The translations under genes were made by a program, and so were the position numbers. Of a DNA stretch of 57,027 bases, positions 18,043-25,737 are shown piece by piece. The DNA lies in the NCBI GenBank assembly GCA_025360995.1, contig JANYBD010000268.1, positions 1-57,027 of the forward strand, in the 5' to 3' direction. The notes beneath the pieces are model-generated. The model was not told where the DNA came from. It worked only from the letters and a program-made list of their open reading frames with translations, and ran no database searches. This stretch comes from Gemmatimonadota bacterium (GTDB lineage Bacteria; Gemmatimonadota; Gemmatimonadetes; Gemmatimonadales; Gemmatimonadaceae). How positions within the stretch are numbered: position 1 is the stretch's first letter; the number at the start of each line of letters is the position of its first letter.

Positions 18043-19745
18043 CCGTCCGCGCCGCTCGCCTGCTGCGTCGCCTCTCCTGCGCAATATGTTGGTTGACGCT
18101 GAGCGGCGCCGCGCTTGGTGCGCAGGCACAGAATCAATTGTTTCAGAGAGCGCTCGATCTCGAGAATGCATCGCGATACCGTGAAGCAGTTGCCGCGTGG
18201 CGCTCCGTGATCGCCTCAGGTGCGACGGCGCAGGGCATTCTGGGTCTCGAACGGGTCTTTACGCAGCTCGGTCAGGAAGATTCCGTGCTGCCACCGCTCG
18301 ATTCGGCGCTTGCTCTGCATCCCGCCGACCGCGCGCTGCGCGGCGCACAGTTGCGGTTACTCCGGTCGATGGGACGCGAGTCAGAAGCACGCACCGCATT
18401 CGACATTTGGCGAAGGATTCTGTCACGCGACGTTGCCCCATACCACGACTATGCCTCGCAGCTTTTGCAAGAGGGCCACACCGCCGCCGCTGATACCGTG
18501 CTCCAACAAGCCACGACGGCCCTCGGATCTGTTCAGGGGCTGACAATTGAGATTGCCCAGTTGCGAGCGGCACTCGGCCTTTGGGGGCAAGCGGCGATCG
18601 CGTGGCGCGAAGCAATGGCTGCCGAATTGTATATCGAATCGGCGGCCATCTATTCGCTGATGCCAGCGCCCGTAGCGGCTCGCGACAGTGTGCGAGGAGT
18701 TCTCGCAAAGTTGCCAATGTCCGCTCCGCGTAAACGGACGCTGGGCGCATTGGAATTGGGCTGGGGAGCTCCGCGAAACGCCTGGAGGGTGCTCTCTACG
18801 CTCACTGTGGCAGACTCGGCATACGACAGCTGGAATGAATTTGCGCAGGATGCCGAGCGGGCCGGGGCGTGGCTGGTCGCACGCGATGCGTTTGTCGCGA
18901 TGCACAAGCAACGACCAAATGCGTCGATCGCTCTTCGGGCCGCTCAGGCCTCGATCAACGGCGGCGACGCTGCCGCGGCACTTCCCTTGCTTGCGTCGGC
19001 GCGTGAAATGCTGCAGCCCTTCGCGATACGAACGCAGGTGCTCCCGTTGCAGTTGAGAGCCTTGAGTCAACTTGGCCGTGGCGCTGAGGCGGAAGCGCTA
19101 CTGGCGACCAGTGCCGACGTCGAAGCGGGCGCACGCAAAAGTTACGCGCGGCTGGTGGCATGGGCGTGGATTCGCGGCGGTGAAATTGAGAGGGCGCGGG
19201 CCGCACTTGCCGGCGCGAATGGCGATGACGAAGACGAAGTCACCGCGTGGCTCGCCTTGTACGACGGCAATCTCGCCAAGGCCCGTCCTGGACTGCGTCG
19301 TCCAGTGGAAATCACCGCAGAAGCGGTGACCGTGATGACGTTTCTCGGTCGGACACAAGCCGACAGTTCACGAACCGCTGGCCGGGCATTTCTCGCATTG
19401 GTGCGTGGGGATAGCGCTCAAGCCTCGGCCGATCTCGAACGTGCCGCGGATGAACTGCCCGACGCGGCTCCATTTCTCCTTGCACTCGCCGCGCGGGTGC
19501 ACGTTGCTCGCCATCAGGATCCCGCCGCCATCGTGCTGTGGGAGAGAATCGTCACGCACTTTGCCGCAGCGCCAGAGGCGGCCGAGTCCGATCTCGAATG
19601 GGCTCGCGCCCTGATACGAGCGAAAAATAATTCGGGCGCGATCGAGCGCCTCGAGCATCTGCTCCTGACGTATCCACAAAGTGCCCTCTTGCCCCAAGCC
19701 CGCCGCGAATTAGAAACACTCCGCACCCGAGCCGCCGAACAGTGA
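18039..19745 (+). CDS. Tetratricopeptide-repeat-like exported protein
   Basis: Signal peptide and helical-repeat sequence (ALDLENASRYREAVAAWRSVIASG...). Confidence 0.7.
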   Translation: MTVRAARLLRRLSCAICWLTLSGAALGAQAQNQLFQRALDLENASRYREAVAAWRSVIASGATAQGILGLERVFTQLGQEDSVLPPLDSALALHPADRALRGAQLRLLRSMGRESEARTAFDIWRRILSRDVAPYHDYASQLLQEGHTAAADTVLQQATTALGSVQGLTIEIAQLRAALGLWGQAAIAWREAMAAELYIESAAIYSLMPAPVAARDSVRGVLAKLPMSAPRKRTLGALELGWGAPRNAWRVLSTLTVADSAYDSWNEFAQDAERAGAWLVARDAFVAMHKQRPNASIALRAAQASINGGDAAAALPLLASAREMLQPFAIRTQVLPLQLRALSQLGRGAEAEALLATSADVEAGARKSYARLVAWAWIRGGEIERARAALAGANGDDEDEVTAWLALYDGNLAKARPGLRRPVEITAEAVTVMTFLGRTQADSSRTAGRAFLALVRGDSAQASADLERAADELPDAAPFLLALAARVHVARHQDPAAIVLWERIVTHFAAAPEAAESDLEWARALIRAKNNSGAIERLEHLLLTYPQSALLPQARRELETLRTRAAEQ

Positions 19746-21037
19746 TGCCCCGCCTTGCACGTTGCCCGCTGCCGGCCCCGTCCACTGTTGCGTGGTTGTT
19801 CGTAGCGCTATTGACCGTCAGTGCGCCGGCCGTTGCTCAACATTTGCTCATCCCTATGGATGATGCCCAGCAAAACCATCTCAAAGCCTACGGCCTGACA
19901 TTCGCGGCGCTGAAGACCGGAAGCAAAGCCGAATGGTTTCTGAATTACCGCGGCGGCAGCTTTCTGCTGATCGACGAACCGGCCCTCCGTCGCAAAGCAG
20001 CACTCGACGGCGTGACCATTGAGCCCATCGACGACGGAGCTGTCGCGCAAGTCCGCCGCGAAATCGCCGCCGGCAACATGGATGCGGTGACGCTCGAGAA
20101 GGCTCCGAAGATTGCGATTTACTCGCCGCCAAAGTCACCGCCCTGGGATGACGCCGTCACACTCGCGCTGAAGTATGCCGGCATCGAGTACACGCAAATC
20201 TGGGACGACGAGGTCCTGAAAACCGACATTGCGAAATTCGACTGGATTCATTTGTTCCACGAAGATTTCACTGGCCAGCTCAACAAATTGTACTTGGGAT
20301 TCCGTGATGCGCCTTGGTTTATCGAGGAACGCGATCGCGATCTGGGTACTGCCCAACGCAATGGCTACGCCAACATTCCGGCACTCAAGAAGGCCGTCGC
20401 CGAACGCTTACATAATTTTGTGCAGCGCGGCGGGTTTCTGTTCGCGATGTGCAATGCCACGGAGAGTCTCGAGCTCGCGATGGCCTCGCAAAATGTCGAT
20501 ATCTCCGGACCGTTCTCTGACGGCACGCCAATGGACCCGGATGCCGACAGCAAAATGGACTGGACACAAACCTTTGCTTTCCAGAATGCACATCTCGAGA
20601 TGTCATCCGGAGTGAATGCGCTCAGCGATATTGACGGGCATCAGGTCAATGTGCCGGCGCGCCGTCAACCGCTCGGCCAGTTCACGCTCTTTAACTTCTC
20701 GGCGAAATTCGATCCGGTCGCAAGCATGCTGGTACAGAATCATCGCAACGTGATTCCCGATTATTATGGCGTCACGACGTCGTTTGCCCGCTCCGTGCTC
20801 AAGCCCGGAGTAACTGTGCTGGCGAACGAAGAGGGAACGCCGTGGGCGAAATACATTCATGGCGACTACGGAAAGGGCTCGTGGACGTATCTGGGCGGGC
20901 ACGATCCCGAAGATCCCCAACACAACATTGGCGCCCCTCCGACCGATCTCGCGCTACACGCCAATTCGCCAGGGTACCGGCTGATTCTCAATAACGTGCT
21001 CTTCCCGGCCGCCAAGAAAAAGCCACTCAAGACGTGA
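19742..21037 (+). CDS. Exported GATase1-like protein of the family often labelled 'asparagine synthetase B'
   Basis: Signal peptide, HLLIPMDDAQQNHLKAYGLTFAALKTGSKAEWFLNYRGGSFLLID; KIAIYSPPKSPPWDDAVTLALKYAGIEYTQIWDDEV. Confidence 0.7.
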   Translation: MMPRLARCPLPAPSTVAWLFVALLTVSAPAVAQHLLIPMDDAQQNHLKAYGLTFAALKTGSKAEWFLNYRGGSFLLIDEPALRRKAALDGVTIEPIDDGAVAQVRREIAAGNMDAVTLEKAPKIAIYSPPKSPPWDDAVTLALKYAGIEYTQIWDDEVLKTDIAKFDWIHLFHEDFTGQLNKLYLGFRDAPWFIEERDRDLGTAQRNGYANIPALKKAVAERLHNFVQRGGFLFAMCNATESLELAMASQNVDISGPFSDGTPMDPDADSKMDWTQTFAFQNAHLEMSSGVNALSDIDGHQVNVPARRQPLGQFTLFNFSAKFDPVASMLVQNHRNVIPDYYGVTTSFARSVLKPGVTVLANEEGTPWAKYIHGDYGKGSWTYLGGHDPEDPQHNIGAPPTDLALHANSPGYRLILNNVLFPAAKKKPLKT

Positions 21038-23604
21038 CGGCTGCCGCGGAACAAGTCGAGCGCCTTGGAAAAGTCCCCGCCAAGGCAATGCGCACGGCAA
21101 TCACACTGGCTGGTGGGAACGAAGTCTGTTTCGCCTGTCAGGTGAATGACGACGGAATCATTACCGGCGCGCGTCCCGTGGCCCGCGGAGACATTCGCAG
21201 CGTGCTTGCCCTGCCGGGTTTTGCCCAGCGCGGTGAGATGCTTGTGCACAATCATCCGTCAGGGCTGCTTGAACCATCCGAAGCGGACATCGAGATTGCG
21301 GCGCGCATCCACGGCGACGGCATCGGCTTTGGCATCATCGATAACCTGGTGTCGCGCCTCTATGTCGTGGTCGAAGTCCCGCGTGAGGCAAAGCGGGCGC
21401 CGCTCGATCCGGCCGATGTGAGTGCGTTACTTGGCCCCTCCGGACCGATCGCCGATCATCTCGGCCGCTACGAAGACCGGCCCGCCCAGCGCGAGATGGC
21501 AGCGAAAATCGCCCGTTTGTATTCGCTCAACGGCATTGCGCTCATCGAGGCCGGTACTGGCGTGGGAAAATCGTTGGGGTATTTGGTTCCGGCACTCCGT
21601 TGGGCGGCACTCAACGGCGAACGCACGGTCGTCTCGACCAATACGATTACATTGCAGGAGCAATTGGTAGGAAAAGATCTGCCGTTTCTCGCCAAGGCGA
21701 TGGGTTTTCAAAAGGTGCGTTTTGCGTTGCTCAAAGGCTGGCGTAATTATCTTTGCTTGCAGCGCCTGGATCAGGCCCGCGCCGCTTCGCGGACACTTTT
21801 TGATGACAGCGCCGTCGCCGAACTCGACGGGCTCGCCGAGTGGGCGTCGACTACGAAGGATGGCTCGACCGCCGATCTGGCCACGCCACCTCGGCACGAT
21901 GTATGGGACGAAGTTGCCGCTGAAGGCGATCTGTGCACACGGCTCCGCTGTCCCCACTTTGAGCGCTGTTTTGTTTTCGCGGCGCGACGCGAAGCAGCGC
22001 AAGCGGATATTGTCGTCGTGAATCATCATCTCCTGATGGCCGATATCGCCGTGCGCCGCGCATCGCAGAACTGGAGCGAGGCCGCCGTGCTGCCGGCCTA
22101 TTCACGAATCGTTATTGACGAAGGGCATCATCTTGAGGATGCCGCGTCGAGCCATCTCGGGCAAACGGTCACGCGGCGTGGATTGCAACGGCTGTTCTCA
22201 CGGCTCGAGCGTCGCGGGAAAGGATTATTGCCGTCGTTGGAAAAGAAACTGAGCCAGGCAAACGATTTGCTCAGCGTGGCCAGTCTTGACCTCGTGCGGG
22301 CGCGGCTCGTGGCGTCGCTGTTTGCTGCGCGCGACCTCAGTGGCCGCCTGTTCGATTTGCTCGACGAATGGTTGGGCACACAGACCGACACACAGGTACG
22401 GTTGACGGAAACGTTCGATGCCGATCCTGTCTGGCGGGCCGGGCTCACGCCCGCGCTCGACGACCTCCTGCGCGAAATCGAGTTACTGGCCAGCGGTCTC
22501 GAAATGGTGCGTGAGCGGTTCGAGACGGATACGCGGCGCGAAGAGGAAATGGCGCCGTTGCTCAACGAGTTGCGCGGGGTCATTCGACGCCTCGGCACAG
22601 CTGGAGATGGTTTGCGCAGCGCGCTACGTCCGGCCGCGAATGTCGGACCACAGGTGCGGTGGATCGAAGTCCGACAGCATTCGCAACGCCGGCATCAGGG
22701 CGCGGACAGCTATGAGGCGCGGGAGGACGCACAGCGCAATGTTGCGGTGGCGGCGGTCCCGCTCGATCTGGCGCCAATCCTCCGTGACGATCTGTTCCGG
22801 CGTGTTGATACCTGCGTGATTACTAGCGCGACGTTGGCGGTTGGCGGCGGATTCGAATTTATCTCCGGACGGCTTGGGCTCGATCAGAACGATGTCGAGC
22901 CAGTGACTTCGAGCCTGCCAAGCCCGTTTGACTATCCGCATCAGGCGGTCCTGGCGCTACCTACCGACTTTCCGGCTCCGAACGAGGATGGCCCGTTGCA
23001 TTTTCGTCGGACAGTCCAGGCCGGCGCCGATCTTATCGAAGCAGCCGATGGCGGCGTATTCCTGTTGTTCACGAGTCACCGCGATGTTCGCGAAGCGGCG
23101 CAAACGCTACGGGCACTCGGCATCGACAGCCGATGGCCACTGCTGGTCCACGGTGAGGAGTCGCGCGACACATTGTTGCGCCGGTTTCGTCAGTTGGGAA
23201 ATGCCGTGCTGATCGGGACGGCATCGTTCTGGGAAGGAGTCGACGTTCCAGGGCGCGCGTTGCGCGGGCTCGTATTAGCGCGAGTGCCTTTCCGCGTGCC
23301 ATCGGAGCCGGTCACGGCGGCGCAATGCGAGGCCATTGAATCGCGCGGTGGTGATGCATTTCGCGATTATATGGTGCCCCATGCGGCGTTGCGACTAAAG
23401 CAGGGGTTTGGCCGTCTTATTCGGACTGCGACGGATCGTGGGGTTGTGTTGCTCTGTGATCCGCGGGTGGTGCGAAAGTCCTATGGCCGCGCGTTGCTGG
23501 AGTCGTTGCCGCCAGCGCGACGAATTGAAGGTCCGTGGGCGATGGTGCGGGAAGAACTTCTACGGTTCTATGCGTCCGACAACAATTCTCGGAATTCGGG
23601 GTAA
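21034..23604 (+). CDS. JAB/RadC-like domain fused to DinG/XPD-type ATP-dependent helicase
   Basis: N-terminus: NEVCF...MLVHNHPSGLLEPSEAD JAMM motif; then IEAGTGVGKSLGYLVPAL Walker A, C-x4-C-x4-C (LCTRLRCPHFERC), VIDEGHHLED Walker B, helicase C-terminal motifs. Confidence 0.88.
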   Translation: MTAAAEQVERLGKVPAKAMRTAITLAGGNEVCFACQVNDDGIITGARPVARGDIRSVLALPGFAQRGEMLVHNHPSGLLEPSEADIEIAARIHGDGIGFGIIDNLVSRLYVVVEVPREAKRAPLDPADVSALLGPSGPIADHLGRYEDRPAQREMAAKIARLYSLNGIALIEAGTGVGKSLGYLVPALRWAALNGERTVVSTNTITLQEQLVGKDLPFLAKAMGFQKVRFALLKGWRNYLCLQRLDQARAASRTLFDDSAVAELDGLAEWASTTKDGSTADLATPPRHDVWDEVAAEGDLCTRLRCPHFERCFVFAARREAAQADIVVVNHHLLMADIAVRRASQNWSEAAVLPAYSRIVIDEGHHLEDAASSHLGQTVTRRGLQRLFSRLERRGKGLLPSLEKKLSQANDLLSVASLDLVRARLVASLFAARDLSGRLFDLLDEWLGTQTDTQVRLTETFDADPVWRAGLTPALDDLLREIELLASGLEMVRERFETDTRREEEMAPLLNELRGVIRRLGTAGDGLRSALRPAANVGPQVRWIEVRQHSQRRHQGADSYEAREDAQRNVAVAAVPLDLAPILRDDLFRRVDTCVITSATLAVGGGFEFISGRLGLDQNDVEPVTSSLPSPFDYPHQAVLALPTDFPAPNEDGPLHFRRTVQAGADLIEAADGGVFLLFTSHRDVREAAQTLRALGIDSRWPLLVHGEESRDTLLRRFRQLGNAVLIGTASFWEGVDVPGRALRGLVLARVPFRVPSEPVTAAQCEAIESRGGDAFRDYMVPHAALRLKQGFGRLIRTATDRGVVLLCDPRVVRKSYGRALLESLPPARRIEGPWAMVREELLRFYASDNNSRNSG

Positions 23605-23613
23605 TTTATCACT

Positions 23614-24228
23614 ATGGAACGTCCAGGTCAGATCGTCTGCGTCGGCCGCAACTATCGCGAGCACGCCAAAGAAATGGGAAACGATGTGCCGACAGAACCA
23701 CTCCTATTTCTCAAACCGCGGTCTTGCGTGGTCGGTGCGGGCGCCGCGATCGAGCTCCCGGTTGGCGCAGGGCGCGTCGATTTTGAGGGAGAGATCGGCG
23801 TCGTCATTGGGTCGCACCTGCGAAAGGCGACCGCGGCAGCGTGTGCTGCCGCCGTGCGCGGCATTGTTGCGGCGAACGATGTGTCTGCCCGCGAGTGGCA
23901 GAAGAACGACGGTCAATGGGCGCGCGCCAAAGGTTCTGATACGTTTCTGCCGCTAGGCGACGAATCCGACGCACCGCGCGACTTGAGCGAGCTGACCGTC
24001 GTGACACGCCTGAACGGAGTGGAGAAACAGCGGGCCAGCTCATCCGAGTTGGTGTTCCCAATTCCGATATTGCTCGAGTACATCACCCGCTTTATCACCC
24101 TTGAGGCGGGCGACCTTGTGCTTACCGGGACACCAGCCGGTGTCACGGCGCTCAGTCATGGCGACGTGATCGAGGTGGAAATTGTCGGATACTCGGCAGT
24201 GAAGAATCCTGTTGTCGCGCTGACGTGA
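23614..24228 (+). CDS. Fumarylacetoacetate hydrolase family protein
   Basis: IVCVGRNYREHAKEMGNDVPTEPLLFLKP, DFEGEIGVVIG, LVLTGTPAGV. Confidence 0.95.
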   Translation: MERPGQIVCVGRNYREHAKEMGNDVPTEPLLFLKPRSCVVGAGAAIELPVGAGRVDFEGEIGVVIGSHLRKATAAACAAAVRGIVAANDVSAREWQKNDGQWARAKGSDTFLPLGDESDAPRDLSELTVVTRLNGVEKQRASSSELVFPIPILLEYITRFITLEAGDLVLTGTPAGVTALSHGDVIEVEIVGYSAVKNPVVALT

Positions 24229-24241
24229 GCGAGCTGACCAC

Positions 24242-25123
24242 GTGACCGGCAAGCGACGACACGTCATCAGCACACCGGGAGAACAGCGTGATCCACTGAT
24301 GCGCTCTTCTGTCGGATTGGCGACCTCAGTGGTTGTACACGTTGTGCTGGTACTGTCGCTCGTCCGATTATTTCTGGTACCGAACAGTTGGCTGTCGCGA
24401 CTTGCGGAGAAGTCGCCGCCGATTGAGCACATCGGAGTGATCACGCTTCCTTCGAGCGACACACCGCACCCACTGCCGCCGAAATCGGGCGGAGACAATC
24501 GACCGGATCGTGCAAATCCAACACCGGCGCCACCGCAAATCGTTGCGCCGACGAACGTGCCGACCGTGATCGCACCGCCGTCAAAGGAAACCGTTGCACC
24601 GCGTGTGGAATCGGGCACGGGGCCGCTGATCGGGGGAGGAGGGCCAACTCGTGGCGTTAGTCCTTTCTATTCCGATCCGCGACTGTGGGTATTGCCCGGT
24701 CCGGTCGTATCGGCTCCGCTCACGCCGAAGCAGCGCATTGACAGTGTCATCGCGACGAATTTCGGAGCGCTGCAAGATTCAATCGACGCCATCCCCAAGG
24801 AGCGCGCGCCAGGCGACTGGACGATAAAAAAAGGCGGCAAGACGTACGGCATTGATCCGCGATACATCCACCTCGGCAACATCTCCATTCCGACGGCGCT
24901 CCTCGCGTTGCTCCCAATTAACATGACGAGCAATCCGACGACCTATCAGAAAAATCAACAGCTCGGGTTGGTGCGCCGGGAAATTCAGGAACAAGCAGCG
25001 CGGATGGGGCGCGACGACGATTTCAAGGCAGCAGTCAAGGCACTACGCGAACGCAAAGACAAGGAGCGGAGCGACAAAAAAGCCGCGGACATTCCGACTA
25101 TCGTACCGCCCGCCCGGCTTTAG
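24242..25123 (+). CDS. Hypothetical membrane-anchored proline-rich protein
   Basis: One N-terminal TM segment (VVVHVVLVLSLVRLFLV) then a Pro-rich linker, somewhat TonB-like in layout. Confidence 0.6.
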   Translation: MTGKRRHVISTPGEQRDPLMRSSVGLATSVVVHVVLVLSLVRLFLVPNSWLSRLAEKSPPIEHIGVITLPSSDTPHPLPPKSGGDNRPDRANPTPAPPQIVAPTNVPTVIAPPSKETVAPRVESGTGPLIGGGGPTRGVSPFYSDPRLWVLPGPVVSAPLTPKQRIDSVIATNFGALQDSIDAIPKERAPGDWTIKKGGKTYGIDPRYIHLGNISIPTALLALLPINMTSNPTTYQKNQQLGLVRREIQEQAARMGRDDDFKAAVKALRERKDKERSDKKAADIPTIVPPARL

Positions 25124-25737
25124 CTATTGGTCTCGCGGGGTGTCGACCGCACAACGCCCGCCAACACACCCAGTACGACATAGTCATCGCCGGCGCCGAG
25201 TTCGACGTCGTTTCCTGTTCCCGGGGCGGTCAGTATCAGCGTAGAACCCTGCCGCTGCATCGTGCGGACCATCGCGACGTTCGCGACTCGTACAACGACA
25301 ACGTCGCCATCTTTGGCGCGCTGAGACGGATGGACGATCACAAGATCGCCAAGCCGAACGCCGTGGGCGGGGGCGTCTTCGTGCAACGCCCGCACGAGGA
25401 CGGCATCGTCGCTTGGTGTGAGCCGACGGTCGAGTGTGACGTAATCTTCGGCCTCGAGCTCGGCGCGGCCGGCTTCGAGATGTAGGACGGGCACCGGGAT
25501 CGTGCCGGCACCACCAGCGAATCCCACGAGTGTTACACCGCGCGACCGGCCCGGTTCGCGTTCGACATAGCCCTTCCGTTCGAGTGCGGCAAGCACATCG
25601 GCCACACTCTTGGTGCTGGGAATCTTGAACTGCGCCGCAATGTCACGCACACTCGGCTGAAACGTATGCTCCGAGAGAAAATCGAGCAGGAAGTGATATA
25701 CCTGTTGCTCGATAGGCGTGAGCGGCGCTCTGGTCAT
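25120..25737 (-). CDS. lexA: LexA-family repressor with apparently substituted catalytic dyad
   Basis: LexA-like wHTH (LTPIEQQVYHFLLDFLSEHTFQPSVRDIAAQFKIPSTKSVADVLAALERKGYVER) plus S24-like C-terminal fold; start at 25737 overlaps the gltX stop. Confidence 0.85.
   Translation of the reverse strand: MTRAPLTPIEQQVYHFLLDFLSEHTFQPSVRDIAAQFKIPSTKSVADVLAALERKGYVEREPGRSRGVTLVGFAGGAGTIPVPVLHLEAGRAELEAEDYVTLDRRLTPSDDAVLVRALHEDAPAHGVRLGDLVIVHPSQRAKDGDVVVVRVANVAMVRTMQRQGSTLILTAPGTGNDVELGAGDDYVVLGVLAGVVRSTPRETNS

Follow-up and report, generated by a model that had tools for sequence, protein, structure and literature searches.

What would a RadC-type JAB domain be doing on a DNA helicase? The question is raised by one gene of a Gemmatimonadota bacterium, found in a 57,027-nucleotide stretch of DNA (the window). 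Its frame runs from start codon to stop codon with no internal stops, and the first-pass annotation had described the product as a RadC-like domain fused to a DinG-type helicase. The 856-residue protein is almost certainly a Gemmatimonadota 'RadC-like DinG', a RadC-clade JAB domain joined to a YoaA/DinG-type Fe-S helicase. The start codon overlaps the stop of an upstream 431-residue gene by 4 bases, and for that reason the gene has no evident separate promoter. The gene is laid out as follows.

21034–23604, plus strand: the whole RadC-like DinG gene, 856 amino acids, GTG start.
21067–21375, plus strand: RadC-clade JAB/JAMM domain, residues 12–114, placed by Pfam RadC, a PDB profile and AlphaFold2 with Foldseek to 2qlc.
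21121–21123, plus strand: Glu30, predicted JAMM acid-base, kept in 69/71 JAB-bearing sequences.
21247–21288, plus strand: JAMM core HNHPSGLLEPSEAD, with His72, His74, Ser82 and Asp85.
21376–21471, plus strand: less conserved linker, residues 115–146.
21472–23568, plus strand: DinG/YoaA-type (XPD-like) superfamily 2 helicase, residues 147–845, placed by Pfam, NCBIfam, PDB and Foldseek.
21547–21573, plus strand: Walker A, EAGTGVGKS, residues 172–180, with Lys179 in 77/77 sequences.
21754–21756, plus strand: Cys241, first Fe-S ligand, Cys in 53 sequences and Ser in 24.
21934–21969, plus strand: Cys301, Cys306 and Cys312, the other Fe-S ligands, each in 77/77.
22117–22128, plus strand: DEGH box, residues 362–365, with Asp362, Glu363 and His365 in 77/77.
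23401–23424, plus strand: motif VI, QGFGRLIR, residues 790–797, in invariant or near-invariant columns.
23536–23592, plus strand: C-terminal helix, residues 835–853, from secondary structure and conservation, with invariant Trp835 and Phe845.

On average, pairs of sequences are 59 per cent identical in the JAB domain, 55 per cent in the helicase and 39 per cent in the linker.

By profile and predicted fold, residues ~12–114 belong to the RadC clade of the JAB/MPN clan. Pfam RadC (PF04002) covers residues 69–93 at 25.8 bits with the full-length query (cut-off 22.1) and scores 30.3 bits against the N-terminal part alone. The first-pass claim that the first ~120 residues match the RadC C-terminal domain is borne out by this score and by a predicted fold nearest RadC 2qlc, and their placement in the JAB/MPN clan by the fact that 43/43 aligned homologues also match Pfam RadC. 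A PDB profile search with the N-terminal part returned RadC 2qlc (E 2e-6), and profile comparison of the JAB domain with RadC gave a probability of 98.8. An AlphaFold2 model of residues 1–142, built on a 43-sequence alignment (mean pLDDT 86.6), has five chains of 2qlc as its top matches in the PDB (probability 1.00, E 2.5e-4 to 6.4e-4), with TM-scores to these chains, by query length, of only 0.40–0.48. The JAB fold, the HNHPSG...PS..D signature and the upstream Glu are thus shared with classical RadC (PF04002; PDB 2qlc), whereas only the JAB part is present here, and where the LDH-I stretch of RadC has a conserved DH this protein has an N, Asn104.

All five residues of the metal site, which had been called intact at first pass, are in place (Glu30, His72, His74, Ser82 and Asp85). 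The motif H-x-H-x7-S-x2-D is exact at residues 72–85 and also arises in 27/20,000 shuffles of the protein, and the JAMM assignment therefore leans on fold and conservation as well. The five residues are jointly kept in 60/62 non-redundant JAB-bearing proteins (those below 90 per cent identity) and HNH in 69/69 intact members; HNH is likewise present in 82/82 RadC sequences compared, by construction, the set having been gathered with HNHP as search string. From these residues we infer that the domain would bind one zinc ion. The JAMM peptidase pattern E-Xn-H-[S/T]-H-X7-S-X2-D is not matched in full: spacing and ligands fit, and the middle residue is Asn. JAMM peptidases with biochemical proof carry H[S/T]H (PMC300881).

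The rest of the chain is the full DinG-type helicase that had been described, with Walker A, the four cysteines at 241, 301, 306 and 312, the DEGH box and motif VI, and with DinG 6fwr as its closest structure. Pfam recognizes Helicase_C_2 at 151 bits, DEAD and, with a weaker match, DEAD_2. The name needed some refinement, in that the best NCBIfam score is to YoaA (572.2 bits), followed by DinG at 457 and 405, yet it falls under YoaA's own cut-off of 680. A PDB sequence search placed DinG 6fwr first and returned RadC 2qlc for the N-terminal part. The full-length model (pLDDT 86.6, pTM 0.84) has 6fwr as its best match (E 1e-37), with S. aureus DinG, CasDinG and XPD next. Its relatives DinG and YoaA are Fe-S dependent, move 5'→3' and act on forks (PMC11981726). 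The first Fe-S ligand, residue 241, is Cys in families f1–f3 and Ser in all members of f4–f6 examined (L041–L064), a change of cluster ligand that follows the phylogeny cleanly.

The architecture has been described before, and this protein is a further case of the uncharacterized RadC-like DinG. RadC fusions to DinG/RAD3-like helicases were described by Aravind's group (PMC5512222), and 'RadC-like DinG' was named and defined in the Cheng 2025 review, which states that the subgroup has not been the object of any research (PMC11981726). The first-pass remark that no characterized example is known is therefore right as regards experiment (PMC11981726), but the fusion itself was already in print (PMC11981726; PMC5512222). 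Membership was judged by the subgroup's described features, and the MD1 and MD2 motor motifs, the Fe-S cysteines (the first being Ser in f4–f6) and the C-terminal helix are all found. Also shared with the published subgroup (exemplar Desulfuromonas soudanensis) are a RadC-like domain at the N-terminus that bears the E, H, H and D, a YoaA-like helicase and the missing HolC homologue (PMC11981726). Relative to the subgroup as the section on it in that review sets it out, the proteins here form a clade of Gemmatimonadota that includes variants with a lost JAB domain or a decayed active site. What is new here is the class-wide distribution, a selection estimate and these natural variants.

Among better known helicases, YoaA (NCBIfam NF053712) shares the helicase core at 572 bits and a C-terminal helix, its Trp and Phe invariant, which sits where YoaA has helix alpha-7 and is likened to it by position only. 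It differs in that its cut-off of 680 is not reached here, in the extra JAB domain here, and in HolC, which was not found in relatives: with an own genome 83.5 per cent complete, 0/61 relatives had a HolC match above the family cut-off, and there were only weak matches at E 0.009–0.1. E. coli DinG (PDB 6fwr), the top structural match, shares the Fe-S XPD-like helicase fold but is without the N-terminal JAB domain and is 23 per cent identical. ExoDinG (S. aureus DinG, PDB 8zef) likewise carries an accessory hydrolase-fold domain N-terminal to a DinG helicase; there it is an exonuclease domain, whereas here it is a JAB domain.

As for function, we favour nucleic-acid processing by the JAB domain, coupled to the helicase, a tentative reading to which we give somewhat less than an even chance, with docking and peptidase roles as serious rivals. 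The near-invariance of the metal site, Glu30 and Ser82 points to a putatively catalytic domain, and the RadC-type HNH, the RadC-like fold and the lack of a recognized ubiquitin-like gene among the neighbours scanned would make nucleic-acid processing likelier than peptidase activity. Surveyors of the clade have argued that the ubiquitin-tail groove is missing from RadC and that nucleic-acid processing is its likelier role, reasoning that its JAB domain is placed like nucleases in other multidomain proteins, the DinG fusion included (PMC5512222; PMC3482391). A literature search found no demonstrated nuclease activity for any RadC-type JAB domain, and the DALI search in the review gave metalloproteases, not nucleases (PMC11981726). 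E. coli radC mutants have normal DNA-damage sensitivity according to work cited in that review (PMC11981726). A mean net charge of −4.7 makes the JAB domain acidic, a composition that does not speak for unspecific DNA binding; net charge was uninformative as a guide to DNA binding.

Were nucleic-acid processing the correct reading, the helicase would load onto single strands where forks have stalled or been damaged, and would unwind 5'→3', by analogy with DinG and YoaA. The JAB domain, with one zinc ion held in its site and Glu30 as general base, would then hydrolyse a bond in whichever strand or end the helicase exposes, as a nuclease or end-processing enzyme. YoaA depends on HolC for recruitment and on separate nucleases; here, opening and trimming would instead be joined in a single chain. 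A DNA-repair role, which had been offered at first pass, is plausible from the YoaA-like sequence of the helicase. The function of RadC-type JAB domains is a long-standing question, and here such a domain comes joined to a helicase whose type is known.

It is rather less likely that the JAB domain serves mainly as a docking or regulatory module, such as a recruiter replacing HolC–SSB, and that its metal site is structural. The failure to find HolC in relatives and the acidic composition of the domain would agree with such a role, and so would the fact that the domain can go while the helicase stays. The tree of the helicase part requires at least two JAB losses with the helicase retained, a dispensability that counts against the nucleic-acid mechanism. 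One loss marks a clade made up of genera g3 and g5 in the family to which the window belongs (g8 also lacks a profile match); the other is in G070. In two JAB-less genomes (L068 and L071) the frame upstream of the helicase has a dN/dS of 1.2 over only 59 codons, as expected of non-coding DNA. From the f1 clade (L202–L204) the upstream 431-residue neighbour is also absent in the stretch examined, which suggests that one rearrangement took out both it and the JAB domain; the JAB-bearing loci L200 and L208 are likewise without this neighbour. Three genomes of 1.8–2.0 Mb (G133, G110 and G122) keep a fold that is recognizable by profile with the JAMM residues gone, as might be expected of a docking module, but the decayed sites seen are confined to these three small genomes (the placement in the tree of L061, the longest branch among the decayed copies, is unsure). 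The Glu of JAMM enzymes, Glu30 here, is not a metal ligand. That it and Ser82 are as invariant as the ligands argues against a purely structural site and for catalysis. Whichever role applies, the JAB-less and site-dead natural versions permit direct comparison of pairs that differ at just these points, a class-wide natural experiment on RadC-type JAB function.

The possibility that the JAB domain was split off as a gene of its own in the JAB-less genera was rejected: a search of those genomes for a separate gene of the same JAB type left nothing beyond matches at classical-RadC level. The G070 DinG (L063), an independent loss, has a different in-frame N-terminal sequence.

That the JAB domain is a peptidase, as suggested at first pass, we consider unlikely; positive support for it here goes no further than common JAMM residues and fold. 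The helicase would strip or unfold DNA-bound proteins at blocked forks or crosslinks for the JAMM site to cut, or the domain would remove a small protein modifier. Every JAMM catalytic position is there, Ser82 included, and the structural matches that follow RadC 2qlc are the JAMM deconjugases CSN5, bacterial BubCD, BRCC36 and Rpn11; moreover, 7/43 members weakly match Prok-JAB too. Weighing against this, the nearest clade is RadC, with HNH in place of the peptidase triplet and a ubiquitin-tail groove argued to be missing, and the neighbours scanned against Pfam (part of the neighbourhood) include no ubiquitin-like, E1 or E2 domains. To our knowledge, no peptidase activity of the RadC clade has been described.

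An analogue for such a peptidase is the pair of FANCJ, an XPD-family helicase that unfolds crosslinked protein, and SPRTN, which can then cut it (PMC12279946). A one-chain bacterial counterpart, in which an XPD-type helicase and a fused JAMM metalloprotease would clear protein blocks, is a long shot, and if true it would give a whole bacterial class a dedicated DNA–protein-crosslink repair enzyme and RadC-type JAB domains their first function.

Whatever nucleic-acid processing or other task the JAB domain performs, it is under strong purifying selection, and the constraint on it equals that on the helicase. In the window's closest pair, with L004, dN/dS is 0.019 in the JAB part and 0.020 in the helicase, and of ten other pairs the nine carrying the domain have a JAB dN/dS of 0 to 0.18. 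The protein has a match in 330/399 Gemmatimonadota genomes, and the spread of the fusion, a question left by the first-pass annotation, extends to 200/250 near-complete genomes matched by the JAB-part profile, nearly always within an open frame of more than 800 residues. Among the matches listed, all are in the window's own class, and the named records at 56–98 per cent identity are all Gemmatimonadetes MAGs. The gene is mostly single copy and syntenic amid housekeeping genes, and one downstream neighbour, given for context only, is found in 18/18 neighbourhoods compared, JAB-less ones included:

23614–24228, plus strand: fumarylacetoacetate hydrolase family gene, by Pfam.

Distribution and synteny fit a vertically kept housekeeping gene and not a mobile one. 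The own genome also has a classical RadC, on another contig. Upstream, the 431-residue gene (19742–21037, plus strand) has no Pfam or NCBIfam match and is 59–95 per cent identical over 13 neighbourhoods.

Related DinG proteins act in CRISPR and other defence, and from that kinship, together with PADLOC type IV DinG models that match the helicase part, a mobile or anti-phage defence helicase might be proposed. This is very improbable given a gene so widespread, syntenic and mostly single copy among housekeeping genes, neighbours scanned that contain no cas domains, and RadC relatives in viruses that are without a DinG fusion. The helicase is matched by 1,102 plasmid records; all of the 30 matches listed start at residue 110 or later, and in these 30 the JAB part was not seen. 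An assembly or frameshift artefact fusing two genes can be set aside with near certainty, since the identical fusion recurs in hundreds of independent assemblies, some of them single-contig genomes.

A phage origin of the fusion was rejected as well, as a scan of 80 viral RadC loci found a DinG match in none. Several of the viral contigs (L088, L090, L106, L146, L161 and similar) have a RadC-type JAB domain mid-way along ORFs of about 2,500–2,750 residues, and these giant JAB-bearing ORFs resemble published polyvalent proteins. Further along the window, a LexA-like repressor (25120–25737, minus strand) has both the Ser and the Lys of S24 replaced (GDSM to HEDA; ATVK to AMVR). The dyad is also missing at the related loci L004, L006 and L009 and kept in the L007 and L202–L204 counterparts, and a second LexA match lies on contig C104 of the own genome.
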